A stretch of 64,000 nucleotides of DNA. It comes from Oscillospiraceae bacterium (lineage in GTDB: Bacteria; Bacillota; Clostridia; Oscillospirales; CAG-272). The stretch spans positions 62,001-126,000 of the forward strand of contig SVTL01000002.1 of assembly GCA_015063795.1 (NCBI GenBank), in the 5' to 3' direction. The notes under the pieces are model-generated. The model had not been told where the DNA came from. It worked only from the letters and a program-made list of their open reading frames with translations, and ran no database searches. Positions within the stretch are counted from its first letter, which is position 1, and each line of letters starts with the position of its first letter. The translations under genes were made by a program, and so were the position numbers. Positions 1,008 through 35,549 of this stretch are shown here, piece after piece.

Positions 1008-1952
1008 ATGAATACAGCCAAAGACTATCAGCCCTATCAGGAGGGAAGGATCCTTTTTCAAACGCAGGTCAATGCCTTTGCGCCCGATCTCGATCACAGC
1101 TCCAACTCTCTGCAGGACGGCGAGACATACAATGCCGTCACCGGCCTTCTGATGCTGCCGAAGACCTATTCGCCGAGCGGCAAAAAGACCACGTTGGTCA
1201 TGCTGGCCCACGGCGCAGACGGATACATCACCGAAACGGTCTGGCGAGACAACAACGAGCAGTGGCTGAAAATGGTGGATATGCTGCTGGAAGCCGGCTA
1301 TGCCGTTTTCGACACCAATACGGTCAAGGACAACGGAAATGCTCCCTATAAGGCGCCGGGCATGCCCCAGACCGTGCAGAGCTATTATAAGGCTTACCGC
1401 CATTGCATCGACCATTACAATCTGTCCGATCAGATCATCACCGTCGGCTGCTCCATGGGCGGTCTTGCGGCGCTGAATTTTGCTTTTGCCCATCCGAATG
1501 CGGTCAGCGGCGTGGCGTTTTTTGCGGGGATGATCGATCTGCGCAATCAGGGCTGGATCCGTCAGCTCAAGTCCACACGCGCTCATGTGGCCGCCTGTTT
1601 GAATTTTGAGAAGAAGGAGACCTATGAGAAGGAGGACTACGAGGAGGATAAGGCGTGTCCCTATGATCCGATGAAGAAGATCGTCACGATCGATGGCAGG
1701 GAGTATGTGTTTGCGCCCTGTCCGCCGCTGAAATTCTGGCACGGTCTGGCGGATACGATCCTCCACGAGATCGACAGCAACCGCCGCTTTATCCATGCGG
1801 TGCGGAACGCGGGCGGCATCGCCGAGATGCGCGAGGTGGAAAAAGCCCCCCATGCGCTGGCCCGCGGCGTGTTCACCGATACCGACGGCAACGAGCAGAC
1901 CTTCGTTGTGGAAGAGCTGATTTGCTGGATGAACCGCATCGCCAAAGGCTGA
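1008..1952 (+). CDS. Alpha/beta hydrolase fold protein
   Basis: A cytoplasmic alpha/beta hydrolase of 314 residues with no signal peptide. The nucleophile elbow GCSMGG supplies the Ser, an LAHGADG stretch provides the oxyanion-hole region after an early strand, and HGLADTIL and KAPHALARG late in the protein carry the likely Asp and His. The substrate is unknown. Two ATGs compete. ATG 999 is only 2 bases from GGAGG (992-996), too close for a working site, so ATG 1008 (11-base spacing) is preferred with modest confidence. It ends facing the gph transcription unit, with a shared bidirectional terminator between them. Confidence 0.8.
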   Translation: MNTAKDYQPYQEGRILFQTQVNAFAPDLDHSSNSLQDGETYNAVTGLLMLPKTYSPSGKKTTLVMLAHGADGYITETVWRDNNEQWLKMVDMLLEAGYAVFDTNTVKDNGNAPYKAPGMPQTVQSYYKAYRHCIDHYNLSDQIITVGCSMGGLAALNFAFAHPNAVSGVAFFAGMIDLRNQGWIRQLKSTRAHVAACLNFEKKETYEKEDYEEDKACPYDPMKKIVTIDGREYVFAPCPPLKFWHGLADTILHEIDSNRRFIHAVRNAGGIAEMREVEKAPHALARGVFTDTDGNEQTFVVEELICWMNRIAKG

Positions 1953-1980
1953 TCGGACTCATAACCGAAAAAACAAAACG

Positions 1981-2016
1981 ATCCCTCCTGCCTGTGAGAA
2001 AGCGGGAGGGATTTTG
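1981..2016. terminator. Bidirectional intrinsic terminator
   Basis: A stem pairs 1981-1991 with 2002-2012 (ATCCCTCC against GGAGGGAT, extended by TGC/GCG). T-rich sequence follows on the plus strand and an A-tract precedes it, which reads as T on the minus strand. It lies between two converging transcription units. Confidence 0.85.
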
Positions 2017-2037
2017 TTGTGTGTAAATAAAAGAGAG

Positions 2038-2176
2038 TCTTATTCCGCCAGCAGCAGAGCCTTCAGCTCATCGGGCGTCGATACGATCACATCCGCACCG
2101 GAGTCTTTGAGAAAACCGCGGTCGCGGAAGCCCCAATCGACGATGATGCAGTCCATGCCGGCGTTTTTGGCGGTTT
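2038..2176 (-). repeat. Left copy of 139-bp direct repeat (duplicated gph 3' end)
   Basis: This segment matches 3342-3480 at 138 of 139 positions; the only mismatch is T2082 against A3386. On the minus strand it holds the last 45 or so codons of gph plus its stop codon, with no start of its own. It is therefore a gene remnant lying just 3 bases beyond the stop of the unknown gene at 2180-3313. The offset between copies is 1304 bases. Confidence 0.95.
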
Positions 2177-2179
2177 GTG

Positions 2180-3313
2180 TTAAACCTTTGGTATAAACCA
2201 ATTCGGTGACTCAGGAAACAGACCGTCCAAATCCGGAAGCATCGTTTTTTCAAAATCGGAAACAATCGACATTACCTTTTCAAAATAAGCATCCGTTTCC
2301 GATTGATTTGTCGGAGTCTGTCCGCTGATTCCCAGTCTATGGTAAAATCCAATGCCTTGGAAGGACAGGATGACATCCACATCATAATGAGATGGTCCGC
2401 TGTCAAACGCTAAATGCATGACATTTCCCCGTGCTGTCCGTTTTTCCAGCGCGTACACTCCTCCGTTCCAAATGAGTTTGTAAGCATATCCGTACCGCAC
2501 GGCAAGTTTTTTCAGTGGTTTTGCTACAGAGTATTTTGAAGGAAAATTGTTTTGCTTTCGTGTATCCGGAAGACGATCTTCAAAAAACGCTCGGCATTTC
2601 TCTATCGTCGGTTCTGCCGCCCGATTCACTGCCTCGATTTCTCGCAATTCCTCCTCTGAAAAATAAACATTAAGCGAAGTTATGGTTTTGATATCGGGCA
2701 AAAGTGCCTGCATGGATTCGTAATAGGGCGTTGCATCCAACACTTGTCCCTCGTGCAAAAGATCCACGGATAAAACCATATATGAGCTGGAACTACCGCC
2801 GCAGCAATCTCGGTATAGGGTGATCCCGGAGCCATAAGGCTGATGCTTGATTTGAAAAGTCGGGTCAAGAGGCGTTTGCTTGCGTTCCGCTTCCTGCTTC
2901 GCTCTCGAAAAATCACGTTCGAAATGCGTTTTCTTCCCGAAAAAATCAATGTCGAAATACAACAATCTGCTTTCGAAAAAGCCGTATGAACGATAGATTT
3001 TCTTCATAAGGGGAAGAAGTTTTTCTTTCGGAAAACTCTCCTGTCGGTCAATGTTACTCAACCACCGATCCATCTGACCGTTGGAGTCTTTGTAATAGTA
3101 TCGAATGTCTCCCAAAGAGGGGCAATCCTTCAAAATCCTCTCGCAGCCATATCGACTCTCTGAAGCGGCATCTCGTACACTATCTTCAAAATAATAGAGA
3201 AAACGATGGTCGGTAAGATGATTGTCTGATAAAAAACGCTGGACGATGCTTGGCCATTCCGAAAAAGGAATTTTGGTACCGATTTTAAAACAGTAATTTT
3301 TGATCACACGCAT
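2180..3313 (-). CDS. Unknown protein between duplicated gph ends
   Basis: A 377-residue soluble protein that I do not recognise. It is rich in aromatic and charged residues, with no signal peptide or membrane span. A glycine/serine patch (CCGGSSSSY) lies near residue 175 and the protein ends WFIPKV. The start has a strong AAGGAG site 8 bases upstream. Base composition is more AT-rich than the neighbouring genes. The gene lies exactly between the two copies of the gph 3' end, and transcription from gph would run into it. The arrangement indicates a recent insertion, which is inference. No function is proposed. Confidence 0.75.
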   Translation of the reverse strand: MRVIKNYCFKIGTKIPFSEWPSIVQRFLSDNHLTDHRFLYYFEDSVRDAASESRYGCERILKDCPSLGDIRYYYKDSNGQMDRWLSNIDRQESFPKEKLLPLMKKIYRSYGFFESRLLYFDIDFFGKKTHFERDFSRAKQEAERKQTPLDPTFQIKHQPYGSGITLYRDCCGGSSSSYMVLSVDLLHEGQVLDATPYYESMQALLPDIKTITSLNVYFSEEELREIEAVNRAAEPTIEKCRAFFEDRLPDTRKQNNFPSKYSVAKPLKKLAVRYGYAYKLIWNGGVYALEKRTARGNVMHLAFDSGPSHYDVDVILSFQGIGFYHRLGISGQTPTNQSETDAYFEKVMSIVSDFEKTMLPDLDGLFPESPNWFIPKV

Positions 3314-3341
3314 GGATGATCTCCTTCCTGAATTTTGCTGT

Positions 3342-3480
3342 TCTTATTCCGCCAGCAGCAGAGCCTTCAGCTCATCGGGCGTCGAAACGATCACATCCGC
3401 ACCGGAGTCTTTGAGAAAACCGCGGTCGCGGAAGCCCCAATCGACGATGATGCAGTCCATGCCGGCGTTTTTGGCGGTTT
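3342..3480 (-). repeat. Right copy of 139-bp direct repeat (native gph 3' end)
   Basis: The partner of 2038-2176. This copy is continuous with the intact gph reading frame, so it is taken as the native one. The repeat reaches two bases past the gph stop codon and stops abruptly at both ends. Confidence 0.95.
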
Positions 3481-3997
3481 CGATGTCCACCTCCGAATCG
3501 CCGATGTAGACAGCCTGTCCGCGGTCAATGCCCACCGCCTCCAAAACGGCGTTCACTCCGTCGGGAGCGGGCTTACGGCGGATGCCTTCCTTTTCCCCTG
3601 CGGCGGCATCAAAAAGAGAAGGGAAGTACTGCTCGCAGAGCGACTGCACGGCGTAGTCGGCCTTGTTGGAAAGAACGGCGGTCTTCAGCCCCTCTGTGCG
3701 TAGATCACGTAGCAGCGCGAGAATACCGTCATAAGGCTTGGTGTTGTCCGCACAGTGGACGGCGTAATGCTCCGTGAAGGTCTCGTGGACCTGCTTTGTT
3801 TTCTCCTCCGCCGTTCCTTCGGGGACACCGCGGGCGATCAGCTTGGCGATGCCGTTGCCCACAAAACGGCGCACCTCGGTCCGCGTCCGAGTGGGGTAGC
3901 CGTGATGAGCCAAAGCGTGGTTGAGACTGTTGGCCAGATCGTCCAGTGTATCGAGGATCGTGCCGTCTAAATCGAAAACAGCGAGCGTATATTTCAT
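3344..3997 (-). CDS. gph: Phosphoglycolate phosphatase-like HAD hydrolase
   Basis: A 217-residue HAD subfamily IA phosphatase. Motif I DLDGT begins about residue 9 (nucleophile and acid/base Asp), motif II is the Ser of VLSNK, motif III the Lys of RRKPAPD, and motif IV GDSEVD. The cap region between motifs I and II fits the Gph/PGP group, which removes phosphate from 2-phosphoglycolate or similar small phosphates; the exact substrate cannot be read. The ATG at 3997 has AAAGGAG upstream. The frame is open 60 codons further back, but that part is low-complexity and covers the promoter. Its last 45 codons are duplicated at 2038-2176. Confidence 0.88.
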   Translation of the reverse strand: MKYTLAVFDLDGTILDTLDDLANSLNHALAHHGYPTRTRTEVRRFVGNGIAKLIARGVPEGTAEEKTKQVHETFTEHYAVHCADNTKPYDGILALLRDLRTEGLKTAVLSNKADYAVQSLCEQYFPSLFDAAAGEKEGIRRKPAPDGVNAVLEAVGIDRGQAVYIGDSEVDIETAKNAGMDCIIVDWGFRDRGFLKDSGADVIVSTPDELKALLLAE

Positions 3998-4049
3998 ATG
4001 GTCGAACTCCTTTGATCGGGATGGAAAGCGCCGTTTCGGACGCTCTTTC

Positions 4050-4078
4050 AGTATACCACCGAATGCGGTCGAATGCAA
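4050..4078 (-). promoter_or_regulatory. Sigma-A type promoter for gph
   Basis: On the minus strand TTGCAT (4073-4078) is followed after exactly 17 bases by TATACT (4050-4055), about 50 bases before the gph start. It would drive gph and then the unknown gene at 2180-3313. Confidence 0.6.
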
Positions 4079-4186
4079 GGGGAAAATCGCCGTTTTTGTC
4101 AGCGTTTTTTTGGGCTTTTTCAATCCTTTTGACATTTCAAGCAAGAATATATCGATAAATATAAGTAAAATATTCAAATATAACTA

Positions 4187-4218
4187 TTGCAAAAAACAAA
4201 AATGTGTGGTATTATAAT
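4187..4218 (+). promoter_or_regulatory. Sigma-A type promoter for rex
   Basis: TTGCAA (4187-4192) lies 17 bases before TATTAT (4210-4215); an overlapping TATAAT (4213-4218) would need a 20-base spacer. It sits in a strongly AT-rich stretch about 95 bases before the rex start. I see no inverted TTGTTA/TAACAA Rex box here, so autoregulation is not evident. Confidence 0.5.
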
Positions 4219-4309
4219 TATGTATGCTGGCAAGTTATGTTCAAATCTCTGCAAAGTCAAAGAAAGTGCAAAAATCGGAGAATTTTACAAACGAAAGGGG
4301 AGGGCGCCA

Positions 4310-6423: not shown

Positions 6424-7227
6424 ATGATGAAAATGAGTTATTTTCCCGGCTGTACGTTGAAGACGAAGGCGAAGGATCTGGACGTCTATGCGCGCAGAAG
6501 TGCAGAGGCTCTGGGCATCACGCTGGAGGAGATCGAGAACTGGCAGTGCTGCGGTGGTGTTTTCACCACCGCCCGCGATGAGATCGCAACCAAGCTGTCC
6601 TCTGTCCGCGCTCTTCTGGCTGCTCAGCAGAAGGATCAGAAGCTGGTGACCGTTTGCTCCGCTTGCCACAATGTGATCAAGCAGACCAACCACGCCATGC
6701 AGACCGATGAACGGTTCGCCAACCACGTCAACAACTACCTTGCCGCCGACGGCCCCTACAACGGGGAAGCACAGGTCATCCATTATCTGGAGATGCTGCG
6801 CGATGAGGTCGGATTCGACACAATCAAAGAGAAGGTGAAAAATCCTCTCACCGGCAAAAAGATCGCGGCTTACTACGGCTGTCTGCTGCTCCGTCCCAAC
6901 AAGACGATGCAGATGGACGATCCGGAGAACCCGAAGATCATCGAGGATTTCATCCGCGCCATCGGCGCAGAGCCCGTGATCTATCCCTACCGCAACGAAT
7001 GCTGCGGCGGATACATCGCTCTCGAAAGCCCGGATCTGGCCAAGGCCAAGAGCAACAACGTGACCAACAGTGCTGCCAACAACGGCGCGGAAATGATCGT
7101 CACCGCTTGCCCGCTCTGCCGCTATAACCTGGAGAAGAACGGTTCTCAGATCCCGGTTGTCTACTTCACCGAGCTGCTTGCGGAAGCACTCGGAGTAAAG
7201 GAGGATTCCGATGGAAAAGACGAATGA
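6424..7227 (+). CDS. hdrB: HdrB-like CoB--CoM heterodisulfide reductase subunit B
   Basis: A 267-residue protein with two CCG domains. Each supplies cysteines for a non-cubane [4Fe-4S] cluster: PGCTLK, WQCCGGVF and CSACHN in the first half, then YYGCLLL, NECCGGYI and CPLCRYN in the second. In characterised Hdr complexes this subunit is the disulfide-reducing site. Here no DsrC or methanogen thiol cofactor gene is visible, so its substrate is open; it may pass electrons to the FrdAB-like pair downstream or use an unknown disulfide. GGAG precedes ATG 6424. The gene overlaps hdrC by 17 bases, implying translational coupling. Confidence 0.9.
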   Translation: MMKMSYFPGCTLKTKAKDLDVYARRSAEALGITLEEIENWQCCGGVFTTARDEIATKLSSVRALLAAQQKDQKLVTVCSACHNVIKQTNHAMQTDERFANHVNNYLAADGPYNGEAQVIHYLEMLRDEVGFDTIKEKVKNPLTGKKIAAYYGCLLLRPNKTMQMDDPENPKIIEDFIRAIGAEPVIYPYRNECCGGYIALESPDLAKAKSNNVTNSAANNGAEMIVTACPLCRYNLEKNGSQIPVVYFTELLAEALGVKEDSDGKDE

Positions 7228-7618: not shown

Positions 7619-9613
7619 ATGCAGAGAATAGGCGTATTTGTATGCTGGTGCGGAAGCAACATTGCCGGTACGGTTGACGTGCAGGCGGTGTCCGAAGCTC
7701 TGAAAAATGAGCCCGGCGTTGTCTTGTCCACCAACTATCAGTACATGTGCTCCCAGGCGGGACAGGATATGATCAAGGCAGCCATCGCCGAACATAAGCT
7801 GACCGGTATCGTGATCTGCTCCTGCTCGCCCCGTATGCACGAAGCGACCTTCCGCAAGACCGCGGCGGCCGCAGGCATCAACCCCTACATGGTCGAGATC
7901 GCCAACATCCGTGAGCAGTGCTCCTGGGTCCATAAGGAGATGGAGATCGGTACCGAGAAGGCAATCATCCTCGGTAAGGCCGCCATCGCCAAGGTCAACC
8001 TGAACACGCCCCTCACCCCCGGCGAAAGCCCTGTAACCAAGCGTGCGCTGGTCATCGGCGGCGGTATCGCCGGTATCCAGACCGCTCTGGACATCGCCGA
8101 TGCCGGCTTTGAAGTCGATATCGTCGAGAAGAAGCCCACCATCGGCGGTAAGATGGCTCAGCTCGATAAGACCTTCCCGACTCTCGACTGCGCCGCTTGT
8201 ATCCTGACTCCTAAGATGGTGGATGTCGGTCAGCACGAAAAGATCCGCATCTTCTCGTACAGCGAGGTCACCGCTCTGGAAGGCTTCGTGGGCAATTTCA
8301 CCGCGACCATCACCAAGAAGGCTCGTTTCGTTAAGGAAGACGTCTGTACCGGATGCGGTCTGTGTACCGAAAAATGTCCGCAGAAGAAGGTTCCCAACGA
8401 ATTCAACCTGGGCATGGACAACCGCCGTGCCATCTACATCCCCTTCGCACAGGCCGTGCCGAAGGTGGCAACCATCGACCCCGATCACTGCACCATGTTG
8501 AAGACCGGCAAATGCGGTCTCTGCGCCAAGGTTTGTACCGCCGGTGCGATCGACTACACCCAGAAGGATGAGGTCATCAAGGAGAAGTACGGCGCTATCG
8601 TCGTTGCAACCGGTTATGAGCCCATCAGCATGGAGAAGTTCGACGAGTTTGCCTACAACCAGTCCAAGGACGTTATCACCTCTCTCGAGTTTGAGCGTCT
8701 GACCAACGCTGCCGGTCCGACTGCCGGTAAGCTGCTCCGTCCCTCCGACGGCAAGCATCCTCACAAGATCGTCTTTGTCCAGTGCGTGGGCTCCCGCTGC
8801 GAGAACTGCGCCGAGAAGGGCAAGGAATACTGCTCGAAGATCTGCTGCATGTACACGGCCAAGCACGCCATGCTCACCCGTGACAAGTACCCGGATACCG
8901 AGGTTTATGTCTTCTACATCGACGTCCGTACCCCCGGTAAGAACTTCGATGAGTTCTACCGCCGCGCGGTTGAGGAATACGGTGTTCACTACATCAAGGG
9001 CATGGTCGGTAAGGTCACGCCCGAGGGCGACAAGCTGATGGTCCAGGCTTCTGACCTGCTGGCCGATAAGCAGCTGCACATCGATGCCGACCTGGTCGTT
9101 CTGGCCGCTGCCATCGAGCCCGACAAGTCCGCCCGTCCGCTGGCCACGATGCTCACTGCCAGCATGGACACCAACGACTTCTTCACCGAGGCGCATCCCA
9201 AGCTCCGTCCCGTTGAGAGCCCCACGGCCGGTGTGTACCTGTCCGGTACCTGCCAGGGCCCGAAGGATATCCCCGAAACCGTTTCCCAGGCGGGCGCTGC
9301 TGCCGCTAAGGTCATCGGCCTGCTTGCCAAGGATAAGCTGACGGGTAACCCCTGCGTGGCTCATTCCGACGAGCTGATGTGTAACGGCTGCTCCTCCTGC
9401 GAGAGAGTCTGCCCGTACGGCGCCATTACCTATACCGATAAAGAATTCCGTATGCCCAACAGAACGACGCTGATCCGCCGTGTTGCTTCGGTCAACGAGG
9501 CTGTCTGCCAGGGCTGCGGCGCTTGTACGGTCGCTTGCCCGTCTGGTGCTATGGATCTGAAGGGCTTTGCAAGCGAACAAATCATCGCGGAGGTGGATGC
9601 CGTATGCAAGTAA
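7619..9613 (+). CDS. hdrA: HdrA-like flavin-based electron-bifurcating subunit
   Basis: A 664-residue FAD protein. The FAD Rossmann motif is VIGGGIAGIQ at about residue 145, followed by the HdrA signature DCAACILTPKM near residue 190. Ferredoxin-type cluster motifs occur at CTGCGLCTEKCP and near CGLCAKVC in the middle, and at CNGCSSCERVCP and CQGCGACTVACP at the C terminus. A cysteine-rich patch CSKICCMYT lies between. In HdrABC complexes the HdrA FAD splits electron pairs between a low-potential acceptor (ferredoxin) and a high-potential one. That activity here is inferred from family. The end overlaps the MvhD/FlxD start by 10 bases. Confidence 0.92.
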   Translation: MQRIGVFVCWCGSNIAGTVDVQAVSEALKNEPGVVLSTNYQYMCSQAGQDMIKAAIAEHKLTGIVICSCSPRMHEATFRKTAAAAGINPYMVEIANIREQCSWVHKEMEIGTEKAIILGKAAIAKVNLNTPLTPGESPVTKRALVIGGGIAGIQTALDIADAGFEVDIVEKKPTIGGKMAQLDKTFPTLDCAACILTPKMVDVGQHEKIRIFSYSEVTALEGFVGNFTATITKKARFVKEDVCTGCGLCTEKCPQKKVPNEFNLGMDNRRAIYIPFAQAVPKVATIDPDHCTMLKTGKCGLCAKVCTAGAIDYTQKDEVIKEKYGAIVVATGYEPISMEKFDEFAYNQSKDVITSLEFERLTNAAGPTAGKLLRPSDGKHPHKIVFVQCVGSRCENCAEKGKEYCSKICCMYTAKHAMLTRDKYPDTEVYVFYIDVRTPGKNFDEFYRRAVEEYGVHYIKGMVGKVTPEGDKLMVQASDLLADKQLHIDADLVVLAAAIEPDKSARPLATMLTASMDTNDFFTEAHPKLRPVESPTAGVYLSGTCQGPKDIPETVSQAGAAAAKVIGLLAKDKLTGNPCVAHSDELMCNGCSSCERVCPYGAITYTDKEFRMPNRTTLIRRVASVNEAVCQGCGACTVACPSGAMDLKGFASEQIIAEVDAVCK

Positions 9614-10038
9614 ACGGATTTAAACCGAAGATCGTGGCTTTCTGCTGCAACTGGTGTTCTTATGCCGGCGCGGACCTGGCGGGCAACAACCGTCTGAACT
9701 ATCCTGCCGATGTTAAGATCATCCGCGTGCCCTGCTCCTGCCGCGTCAACCCCATGTTTGTTCTCCGCGCCTTCCAGCGCGGTGCCGACGGTGTCATCAT
9801 CTGCGGCTGCCATCCCGGCGACTGCCACTACACCTCGGGCAACTACTACACCAGACGCCGTATGTCTCTGCTGTTCTCCATGCTCGATTATCTGGGCATC
9901 GAGAGAGATCGCACCCGTGTTGAGTGGGTGTCCGCAGCAGAAGGCGCCAAGTTTGCCGCTACCATGAACGATTTCGTTGAGAAGGTTACCGCTCTCGGCG
10001 AAAACAAGAGATTGGAGGATCTGCGATGCAAAAGATAA
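9604..10038 (+). CDS. flxD: MvhD/FlxD-like iron-sulfur subunit
   Basis: A 144-residue member of the MvhD family, the small [2Fe-2S] protein that delivers electrons to HdrA. Conserved cysteines are seen in FCCNWCSYAG, VPCSCRV and CGCHPGDCHY. ATG 9604 lies inside the end of hdrA and has a GGAGG site; an open frame back to 9523 is only overlap with hdrA. Length and position next to hdrA match Flx-Hdr clusters. It overlaps the next gene by 13 bases. Confidence 0.88.
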   Translation: MQVNGFKPKIVAFCCNWCSYAGADLAGNNRLNYPADVKIIRVPCSCRVNPMFVLRAFQRGADGVIICGCHPGDCHYTSGNYYTRRRMSLLFSMLDYLGIERDRTRVEWVSAAEGAKFAATMNDFVEKVTALGENKRLEDLRCKR

Positions 10039-11015
10039 CCCGTGAAACGCTGGTCGCCAAGGCATCGGCTCTGCTGGCCGAGGGCATGGTTGACCGTGTA
10101 CTGGGCTGGAAGAAAGGCGAATTTGCCTACGATGTTACGCCCAATGTCTTTGCTGACGCCGCTTCTCTGGAAAAGGATTTCGTCTATGGCGATTTCTGCG
10201 GCGCCAACTTCTCCAAGTATCTGATCGCTGAGACCCGCAAGGGCGAGGGCAAGATTCTGGTCTTCCTCAAGCCCTGCGATACTTACAGCTTCAACCAGCT
10301 CCTCACCGAGCACCGCTTTGACCGCGAAAAGGTCTATGTTGTCGGTATCCCCTGCGAGGGCATGGCTGACATCGGCAAGATCAAGGCCGAAGTGGGCGAG
10401 GGTATCCTCGAGGTCGAAAGCGATGCCAACGGCTTCACCGTCAAGACTCTGTACAAGGGCGACGTCAAGCTGACCGCCGAGCAGGCTCTCGGTGAGCGCT
10501 GCCTGGTCTGCAAGAGCAAGAAGCACGTTGCGTATGATGAGCTGATCGGCGAGGATGGCGTGGTCATCGATTCCGCCCGCTTCGACGAAGTGGAAAAGCT
10601 GGAGAAGATGAGCTCCGATGAGCGCTTTGCCTTCTGGCAGAACGAGCTGTCCCGCTGCATTCGCTGCAACGCCTGCCGCGACGTCTGCCCGGCCTGCTCC
10701 TGCGAGAAGTGCGTGTTCAACAACCCCAAGTCGGGCGTTGAGAACAAGGCCGTTGCCGATAGCTTTGAAGAAAAAATGTTCCATATCATCCGCGCCTTCC
10801 ACGTGGCCGGCCGCTGCACCGACTGCGGTGAGTGCTCGCGTGTTTGCCCGCAGGATATCCCGCTCCACCTGCTGAACCGTAAGTTCATCAAGGACATCAA
10901 CAGCTTCTACGGTGAGTACCAGGCGGGAGAAACGGTCGGATCGAGAGCGCCTCTGGTGAACTACACCACCGAGGACATCGAGCCTTCCGAAGCCGTTGAA
11001 AGGGGGAACCAGTAA
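10026..11015 (+). CDS. flxC: FlxC-like 4Fe-4S electron-transfer subunit
   Basis: A 329-residue soluble iron-sulfur protein. The N-terminal half has FLKPCDTYSFNQLL and VGIPCEG, the kind of sequence found in FrhB/HydB-related electron-transfer proteins. The C-terminal half carries CIRCNACRDVCP with a following CSCEKC, then CTDCGECSRVCP, predicted to bind [4Fe-4S] clusters. Position between the MvhD- and HydB-like genes fits FlxC/FlxB of FlxABCD-HdrABC clusters; the exact letter is uncertain. The stop and the next start share TAATG at 11013-11017. Confidence 0.72.
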   Translation: MQKITRETLVAKASALLAEGMVDRVLGWKKGEFAYDVTPNVFADAASLEKDFVYGDFCGANFSKYLIAETRKGEGKILVFLKPCDTYSFNQLLTEHRFDREKVYVVGIPCEGMADIGKIKAEVGEGILEVESDANGFTVKTLYKGDVKLTAEQALGERCLVCKSKKHVAYDELIGEDGVVIDSARFDEVEKLEKMSSDERFAFWQNELSRCIRCNACRDVCPACSCEKCVFNNPKSGVENKAVADSFEEKMFHIIRAFHVAGRCTDCGECSRVCPQDIPLHLLNRKFIKDINSFYGEYQAGETVGSRAPLVNYTTEDIEPSEAVERGNQ

Positions 11016-33003: not shown

Positions 33004-33046
33004 CAAAAATCCCCCCGGATCCAATTCCGAGGGGATCGCTTTTTAT
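33004..33046. terminator. Terminator hairpin, repeat copy A
   Basis: ATCCCC and GGGGAT arms enclose CCGG...CCGA, with a T-run on the plus side and an A-run on the other, so it works in both directions. It ends the permease operon and the convergent esterase gene. It is nearly identical to the hairpin at 33879-33926. Confidence 0.82.
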
Positions 33047-33066
33047 GTTTGGAGAGACGGCGAAGC

Positions 33067-33825
33067 TTAATTCTTGCATTTGATGTTCATGTCCCAAAAG
33101 GCGAGGGCATTTTGCAAATGAATGTCCCAGTATTGCCACGAATGGTCACCCTCGGAGGTTTCAAGGGTGTGTGCAACGCCCAGATTCGACAAATGGGAGG
33201 AAAAGCGCTTGTTGGTCTCCAGCAGGCTGTCCTCCGTGCCGCACCACAGATACAGATACGGCGGGCACTGACACGTTCCGACAAGGGCGAACAGGTCATG
33301 CTTTGAGCCCTCCAATTCGTCGGCGCTCTTCAGATCGAAGCCGAAAATCGAGCGCCATTCCTCAAGACGGTAGGGACGCCCCTTCCGCGTGATGTCGAGA
33401 GAGCCCGAAAGGGAAGCGCAGAAGCCGTATTTTTCCGGATATGTGAGCGCCGCTTTCAAAGCGCCGTATCCGCCCATGGAAAGACCGATGATGAGATTGG
33501 ACTCTTTCTCTTCGTGGTATCCCTTGAAGCAGGATGCTATGATCTCGGGCAGCTCCTGCGTGACATAGGTAAAATACGCTTTGCCGTAAGCGGTGTCGGT
33601 GTACCAGGAGCGGTCAACGCAGGGCATGACGACAGCAAGCCCGAGCTTTTGTGCATAGCGCTCCACAGACGTATACCGCATCCACGCGCTGTGGTCATCC
33701 GACAGGCCGTGAAGAAGCCAAAGCGTTGTGAACCTCTTGTCTTGCTTGCTTTCGGGCAGCAGGATGTTCAAAGACGTTGCTTGGCTGAGCGCTTCGGAGC
33801 GAAAATCCATTTGTAAAAAAGCCAT
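33067..33825 (-). CDS. EstA/FrmB-like alpha/beta hydrolase esterase
   Basis: A 252-residue esterase D/tributyrin esterase-type alpha/beta hydrolase, cytoplasmic. LLHGLSDDHSAW early on gives the oxyanion loop, GLSMGGYGAL the nucleophile Ser near residue 119, and EGDHSWQYW the catalytic His, with an Asp likely in CGTEDSLL. Relatives hydrolyse short-chain acyl esters or S-formylglutathione. The start has AGGTGA upstream. It is a single-gene unit flanked by two copies of the same terminator hairpin. Confidence 0.88.
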   Translation of the reverse strand: MAFLQMDFRSEALSQATSLNILLPESKQDKRFTTLWLLHGLSDDHSAWMRYTSVERYAQKLGLAVVMPCVDRSWYTDTAYGKAYFTYVTQELPEIIASCFKGYHEEKESNLIIGLSMGGYGALKAALTYPEKYGFCASLSGSLDITRKGRPYRLEEWRSIFGFDLKSADELEGSKHDLFALVGTCQCPPYLYLWCGTEDSLLETNKRFSSHLSNLGVAHTLETSEGDHSWQYWDIHLQNALAFWDMNIKCKN

Positions 33826-33878: not shown

Positions 33879-33926
33879 CAAAAAAATCCCCCCGGATCAA
33901 ATTCCGAGGGGATCGTTTTTTATGCG
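33879..33926. terminator. Terminator hairpin, repeat copy B
   Basis: Same hairpin as 33004-33046 with two substitutions and a longer A-tract, in the same orientation. It ends the ybjQ transcription unit arriving on the minus strand. Confidence 0.82.
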
Positions 33927-34682: not shown

Positions 34683-35549
34683 TTAATCAGTAATGTTAAA
34701 ATACTCCATAGAACTCTTGATTAAAGAATCAATTAACTCTTTGTGCTTTAAATACTCATCAAACCCTGATAACTGAATACTATATTCTTTCCAACGAGGT
34801 GTATAGGATATATCCAAGCCGCTTTCTTCACATTTTTGAACAATTTCGGGATTTTCGTTACCCTTATATACAATGTATAAGTAGTTCTTTTTCGGTCTGA
34901 ACATAAGGAAGTTTTTTGATATACCATCCTTCATCATTCCAATATAGAATTTATTGTACTTTAATTCATATCCGCTCGCATATTCCTTTACACTGTCAAA
35001 TATCTTATCAACATTTTGAAGCATTTTGGGAGTGCTTCTGCCTTCCCAATATTTTCTGTCAGTTGCTTCATACTGTTCATCTTCATCGTTAACAATAGTT
35101 ACTCTATCGAGCACTTTTGTAAAAGCAAGAGAAATATCATCACCCTGTTTATATGCAGTTAATTGTAATGCTATAAGAGGAATTGCACCATTAAACAAGG
35201 AAATAACATTCATAAATCGACCAGTGATTTCTTCGGCGACAATTACAGCACAATGGTCATATTGTGGGTACCTCTTTCTCTCTGTATCCCAATATTCAAT
35301 TGTTCTAATAATGTGGCTAGGGTCAGTAGCACCTAATTGTACTTCTACCTCATATCGAGTACCATCATCATCTGCGAGCAGTAAATCAAGCCTGCCTCCC
35401 AATGGTTGAATTTTTTCTCTTTGTATTGGAGATAAATCGCCCAACCCCAACACAGAAGGGTCATCAAAAATGAAACTTTGAATCAAATCTTCCTTTATTT
35501 TGGAATTATTTTTAAGTTGTACTTTTTCCATTTTAACGATTTTAGCCAT
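34683..35549 (-). CDS. PD-(D/E)XK nuclease-like protein
   Basis: A 288-residue soluble protein. An RLDLLL strand with Asp55 is followed by YEVEVQ with Glu69 and Gln71, the D...ExQ form of the PD-(D/E)XK nuclease core. The C-terminal part (FLMFRPKKNYLYIVYKG onward) resembles the DUF5655 type of domain, with low certainty. The coding sequence is clearly more AT-rich than the neighbours and sits alone between its own promoter and terminator, as expected of a transferred gene. Roles in defence or DNA recombination are possible; none is shown. Confidence 0.7.
   Translation of the reverse strand: MAKIVKMEKVQLKNNSKIKEDLIQSFIFDDPSVLGLGDLSPIQREKIQPLGGRLDLLLADDDGTRYEVEVQLGATDPSHIIRTIEYWDTERKRYPQYDHCAVIVAEEITGRFMNVISLFNGAIPLIALQLTAYKQGDDISLAFTKVLDRVTIVNDEDEQYEATDRKYWEGRSTPKMLQNVDKIFDSVKEYASGYELKYNKFYIGMMKDGISKNFLMFRPKKNYLYIVYKGNENPEIVQKCEESGLDISYTPRWKEYSIQLSGFDEYLKHKELIDSLIKSSMEYFNITD

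Follow-up and report, generated by a model that had tools for sequence, protein, structure and literature searches.

A copy of the gph 3' end on either side of one gene

The window (the whole stretch of 64,000 nucleotides analysed here) contains an intact gph-like HAD phosphatase gene on the minus strand (3344-3997; 217 aa; PF13419, E 6e-38). Its convergent neighbour, given here for context only, is an alpha/beta-hydrolase esterase gene on the plus strand (999-1952; PF00756), and a native terminator hairpin downstream of gph is common to both genes (1976-2019; RNA fold of 1970-2045, z -5.7). The gph 3' end is present twice on the minus strand, as a direct repeat of 139 nt (2038-2176 and 3342-3480; spacing 1304) with abrupt ends and no indel, and the two copies are identical at 138/139 positions. 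Each copy comprises 44 full gph codons plus 2 bases of the next codon, the stop, and 2 nt past the stop, so that the 45 codons stated in an earlier note on this DNA were right to within a base. The gph-proximal copy (3342-3480) is the coding 3' end of the intact gph plus 2 nt and reads GTT at the sole mismatch, whereas the orphan, distal copy (2038-2176) reads GTA; both specify valine, and the difference is synonymous in gph. Chance is excluded as the origin of this repeat, because local alignment of the two 500-bp flanks scored 136 vs ≤14 in 300 shuffles. Protein matches to the gph tail at ≥98% occurred at two places in the genome, and both of these are the repeat copies.

Between the copies lie, in order, 28 nt, an ORF of 1134 nt, and 3 nt. 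The intact ORF (2180-3313, minus strand) encodes 377 aa and starts 30 nt behind gph on the same strand. The 28 nt ahead of it (3314-3341, minus strand) would be a leader that came with the gene, and they hold a strong ribosome-binding site (AGGAAGGAGAT). At the other end, the left repeat copy adjoins abruptly at the stop of the gene plus 3 nt, as had been described. No integrase or transposase was detected in the insert, in agreement with the earlier note, and Phage_integrase matches were confined to another contig and to a part of this contig ~112 kb distant. No RNA family matched within 1900-4300. Integron, transposon, and phage readings of the insert were therefore rejected, given that it has neither integrase nor transposase, no PHROG match, and no RNA family match.

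Composition, family, and expression of the bracketed gene

The bracketed gene has a GC of 0.437 and a GC3 of 0.447, compared with a GC3 of 0.71-0.79 in the neighbouring gph, esterase, alkD-like, and fumarase genes, and among the 46 genes of the window it ranks second for atypical codon usage. The protein belongs to an undescribed family: searches of Pfam, NCBIfam, PHROGs, PADLOC, and PDB sequences returned nothing, and a six-row profile of the family likewise had no match among PDB sequences. The earlier note, too, had called the gene unknown and AT-richer. The fold model was weak (pLDDT 57) and gave no convincing structural match. A second copy was not found in the same genome, nor were relatives detected in phages, plasmids, or IMG/VR. 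In overlapping samples of 394 genomes of the order, 391 of the class, and 299 of the phylum, the gene was also not found, save for one match to the protein (genome G360; E 3e-5, 84 aa) that was set aside as weak and partial.

A promoter scan between gph and this gene returned no promoter-like site, and the native terminator hairpin comes after the orphan gph tail. These two features suggest that the gene is probably expressed from the gph transcript. With regard to its homologues (see below), those behind thiI and the rsmI-like gene may likewise be read from the transcripts of these genes.

Homologues occur at unrelated sites

Five full-length relatives of the protein were identified. The closest one (62% identity) is in an Oscillospiraceae MAG, and four further relatives, with 32-51% identity to the window protein, are in the family of that genome. 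The six homologues (the window protein and the five relatives) can be aligned over their whole length, and all carry a C-terminal P.W[FY] motif. They occupy six unrelated sites. The window gene sits behind gph, and its closest relative (L034) is downstream of tRNA-Leu; the others follow thiI by 46 nt on the same strand (L110), neighbour a DUF218 gene (L116), belong to an array next to a SpoVAC/SpoVAEB gene (L117), and follow a TP_methylase (rsmI-like) gene by 13 nt, again on the same strand (L118). All six are AT-richer than their own context. From these scattered sites and the constant composition bias, we infer that the family has been repeatedly acquired horizontally, as a lone gene at different sites, in some cases together with a duplication of sequence from the site. 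An old, stable arrangement conserved in distant relatives had been named as an observation that would speak against a recent event; instead, members of the family sit at other loci. The duplicated gph tail was also absent from 29 related gph loci, within the flanks examined.

Locus-specific flanking repeats were found at 2/5 relative sites (L117 and L034), and none were found at the remaining three (L110, L116, and L118). At L117, the 3' end of a SpoVAC-family gene recurs at 6763-6888 and 8134-8310 (82-86%), and the tail copies alternate with barstar immunity genes (PF01337) and the relative. Around 22 nt upstream are common to both extra tail copies and missing from the intact gene. SpoVAC and SpoVAEB are paralogues, and old paralogy is thus possible at this locus, yet the similarity is limited to the tail. 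At L034, a pair of 62-bp repeats (92%), for which that genome has no further good match, encloses the relative together with a DUF4304 gene (PF14137). As a background, comparable flanks were present around 3/437 other ORFs of similar size (~0.7%), one of the three being a case of dispersed repeats. Leaving out the window, single-gene repeats occur at 1/5 relatives, or 2/5 if the two-gene unit is counted, for which the chance under the 0.7% background is ~3% and ~0.05%, respectively; this comparison is post hoc.

The neighbours of two relatives, barstar genes in one genome and DUF4304 in another, offer a weak lead that the captured family may function as orphan immunity proteins that protect from interbacterial toxins. 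Such immunity-type neighbours are limited to these two relatives, and the family itself has no match to an immunity family. In a crude count, flanking repeats around barstar genes were not enriched (6/40 windows vs 12/108 controls).

Gene 3' ends and mobile elements in the clade

Copies of another gene end, that of GGGtGRT (PF14057), were observed in related genomes. In genome G022, a free-standing GGGtGRT tail (L098, 597-668) adjoins ParA-like and conjugation-coupling genes, which suggests that this gene end is an attachment site of a conjugative element. In two other genomes, copies of the GGGtGRT 3' end bracket barnase-like and barstar genes (L184, 3758-5121, in G1076; L169, 3520-4910, in G1388). 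The orphan tail is frameshifted in L184, and a resolvase gene adjoins the bracketed unit in L169. Such arrangements suggest that mobile elements of this clade make use of gene 3' ends.

Origin of the insertion

We interpret the locus as a single horizontally acquired gene that was recently captured at the gph 3' end, and we give this reading a probability of roughly 60%. It is supported by the anatomy of the repeat, by the foreign composition and codon usage of the gene, and by the six homologues at six sites, all AT-richer than their surroundings. Further support comes from the locus-specific repeats at 2/5 relative sites vs ~0.7% of comparable ORFs, from the position of three homologues 30, 46, and 13 nt behind gph, thiI, and the rsmI-like gene on the same strand, from the lack of an integrase or transposase in the insert, and from the homology-anchored gain of immunity genes that has been proposed elsewhere (PMC5361080). 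The near identity of the copies (138/139) supports a recent event, as had been proposed. The absence of a flanking repeat at 3/6 homologues and the lack of enrichment around barstar genes in the crude count speak against capture. In the process that we envisage, incoming DNA, either a small circle or a linear fragment of another strain, would have carried a gph 3' end beside the gene, and this end would have paired with the resident gph. The gene would then have been joined to gph, which stayed whole and acquired a second tail, either by a single crossover of the Campbell type or by homologous recombination at one end combined with illegitimate joining at the other. Recombination between the repeat copies could remove the gene again. 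The earlier note had proposed integration of a 1304-bp circle or a capture event at the gene end. The analysis supports that a foreign gene was inserted, that the gph 3' end was duplicated, and that gph stayed intact, but the circle is not singled out among the possible routes: a Campbell circle, homology on one side plus an illegitimate joint, template switching, and integration by a site-specific recombinase all give the same product, and the sequence does not discriminate between them.

The insert could also be a minimal or decayed integrative element (CIME-like). In that case, a site-specific recombinase would target the gph 3' end and the repeat copies would be its attL and attR; the element would have lost its integrase or never had one and would move in trans. 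The direct repeats on both sides do include the end of the target gene, and the GGGtGRT tails, both next to the ParA-like and conjugation-coupling genes of G022 and around barnase/barstar in L184 and L169, are in line with this possibility, as is the spoVAC-tail array of L117, which resembles CIME accretion. We nonetheless consider it rather unlikely. No gph tail apart from whole gph-like genes was found in related gph loci or in non-exhaustive searches of phages, plasmids, and IMG/VR, where the phage and plasmid matches that were inspected were full-length gph-like genes; neither a cognate integrase nor a related integrase-bearing element using the gph target was found in the collections searched (non-exhaustive). 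Moreover, att repeats are usually 8-60 bp (PMC5704250), shorter than the 139 nt found here, and the captured family uses many different targets. For these reasons, homology-anchored capture is favoured, though not proven, for the gph-bracketed insertion.

Template switching during replication, or tandem duplication within the cell, would put a gph tail behind a resident gene or one copied from elsewhere, with no incoming gph-bearing DNA. The product is indeed shaped like a long target duplication, and other short duplications (terminators and a YpsA-like gene start) bracket genes in the same genome; however, the genome has no second copy of the gene that could serve as a template, and the gene looks foreign, which makes this explanation quite improbable. 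That an assembly artefact joined two strain variants of the gph locus is highly improbable even for a draft genome (29 contigs, 93.7% complete), considering that the longest exact repeat is 94 nt, that no assembly path could use the junction of the gene with the gph tail unless reads contained it, and that the locus is inside a 225-kb contig.

Comparison with described systems

Homology-facilitated illegitimate recombination has been described in E. coli conjugation (PMC3240628), and for Vibrio T6SS loci a homology-anchored addition of orphan immunity genes has been proposed (PMC5361080). In both, homology on one side allows new genes to be added beside a conserved gene, at times with displaced gene ends left behind, and arrays of orphan immunity genes are the outcome; here, the homologous anchor would be the gph 3' end, which is present on both sides of the insert at 138/139. 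We regard the Vibrio immunity-array model (PMC5361080) as the nearest described process. It differs in that the anchor there is a toxin/effector gene rather than the end of a housekeeping gene, and in that the addition here amounts to one gene and the duplicated anchor retains its full 139 nt.

CIMEs and IME/ICE at gene ends (PMC5704250) share with our locus a direct-repeat bracket at a gene end, a target that is kept whole, and the absence of an integrase. Unlike them, the locus has a longer repeat and a single promoterless gene, no integrase-bearing parent was found, and the family has many targets. Arrays of short AT-rich genes (possibly orphan immunity genes) with repeated spacer sequence and a tyrosine recombinase resemble L117 only; in our case no recombinase is nearby, the phylum is different, the repeats are host-gene ends, and the window holds one gene and not an array. 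Small variable segments are bracketed by direct repeats in 10-18% of cases, with most repeats <30 bp (PMC2884548). These are similarly short and repeat-bracketed, and they are strain-variable, but the repeat here measures 139 bp, and other sites carry members of the same gene family. Integron gene cassettes are comparable in that a promoterless single gene with its own ribosome-binding site (~1.3 kb) is read from an upstream promoter, in contrast to which an integron integrase and attC were not found here and the repeat is host gene coding sequence.

The locus is an apparent fresh acquisition with its scar intact, consisting of one gene, one duplicated anchor, and one silent difference, and it illustrates how a bacterium may gain one foreign gene next to a housekeeping gene that remains unbroken. 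Such additions could reflect a so far unrecognised cassette mode in Clostridia, in which immunity-like single genes that carry no recombinase become inserted at the 3' ends of various housekeeping genes (gph, spoVAC-like, GGGtGRT) and leave a copy of the gene end each time. The host gene would stay whole, the cassette could ride its transcript, and arrays would grow at the same spot. We consider this generalisation unlikely; since there is no overall enrichment around barstar genes, the wider idea rests on individual loci. Should gene-end repeats around immunity genes prove general, they would provide a route for Clostridia to collect orphan immunity genes.

Other repeat-bracketed genes in the same genome

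The genome was scanned for other repeat-bracketed cases over ~0.8 Mb of its 2.16 Mb. In the window, two bidirectional terminators (33005-33047 and 33882-33924; 41/43 identical, with no other copy in the genome) bracket an esterase gene (33067-33825, minus strand), which makes it another case in the window of one gene enclosed by unique direct repeats. The ORF that ranks first in the window for atypical codon usage (34683-35549, minus strand) is ~0.8 kb from this esterase gene and has no Pfam match. On contig C7 (L050), terminators that are 89% similar (8654-8706 and 10898-10950) bracket helix-turn-helix and lipoprotein genes. On contig C5 (L072), the 5' part of a YpsA-like (SLOG) gene is copied at 8789-8841, 9365-9416, and 9774-9810, and these copies bracket a helix-turn-helix gene and an Arc-like gene.
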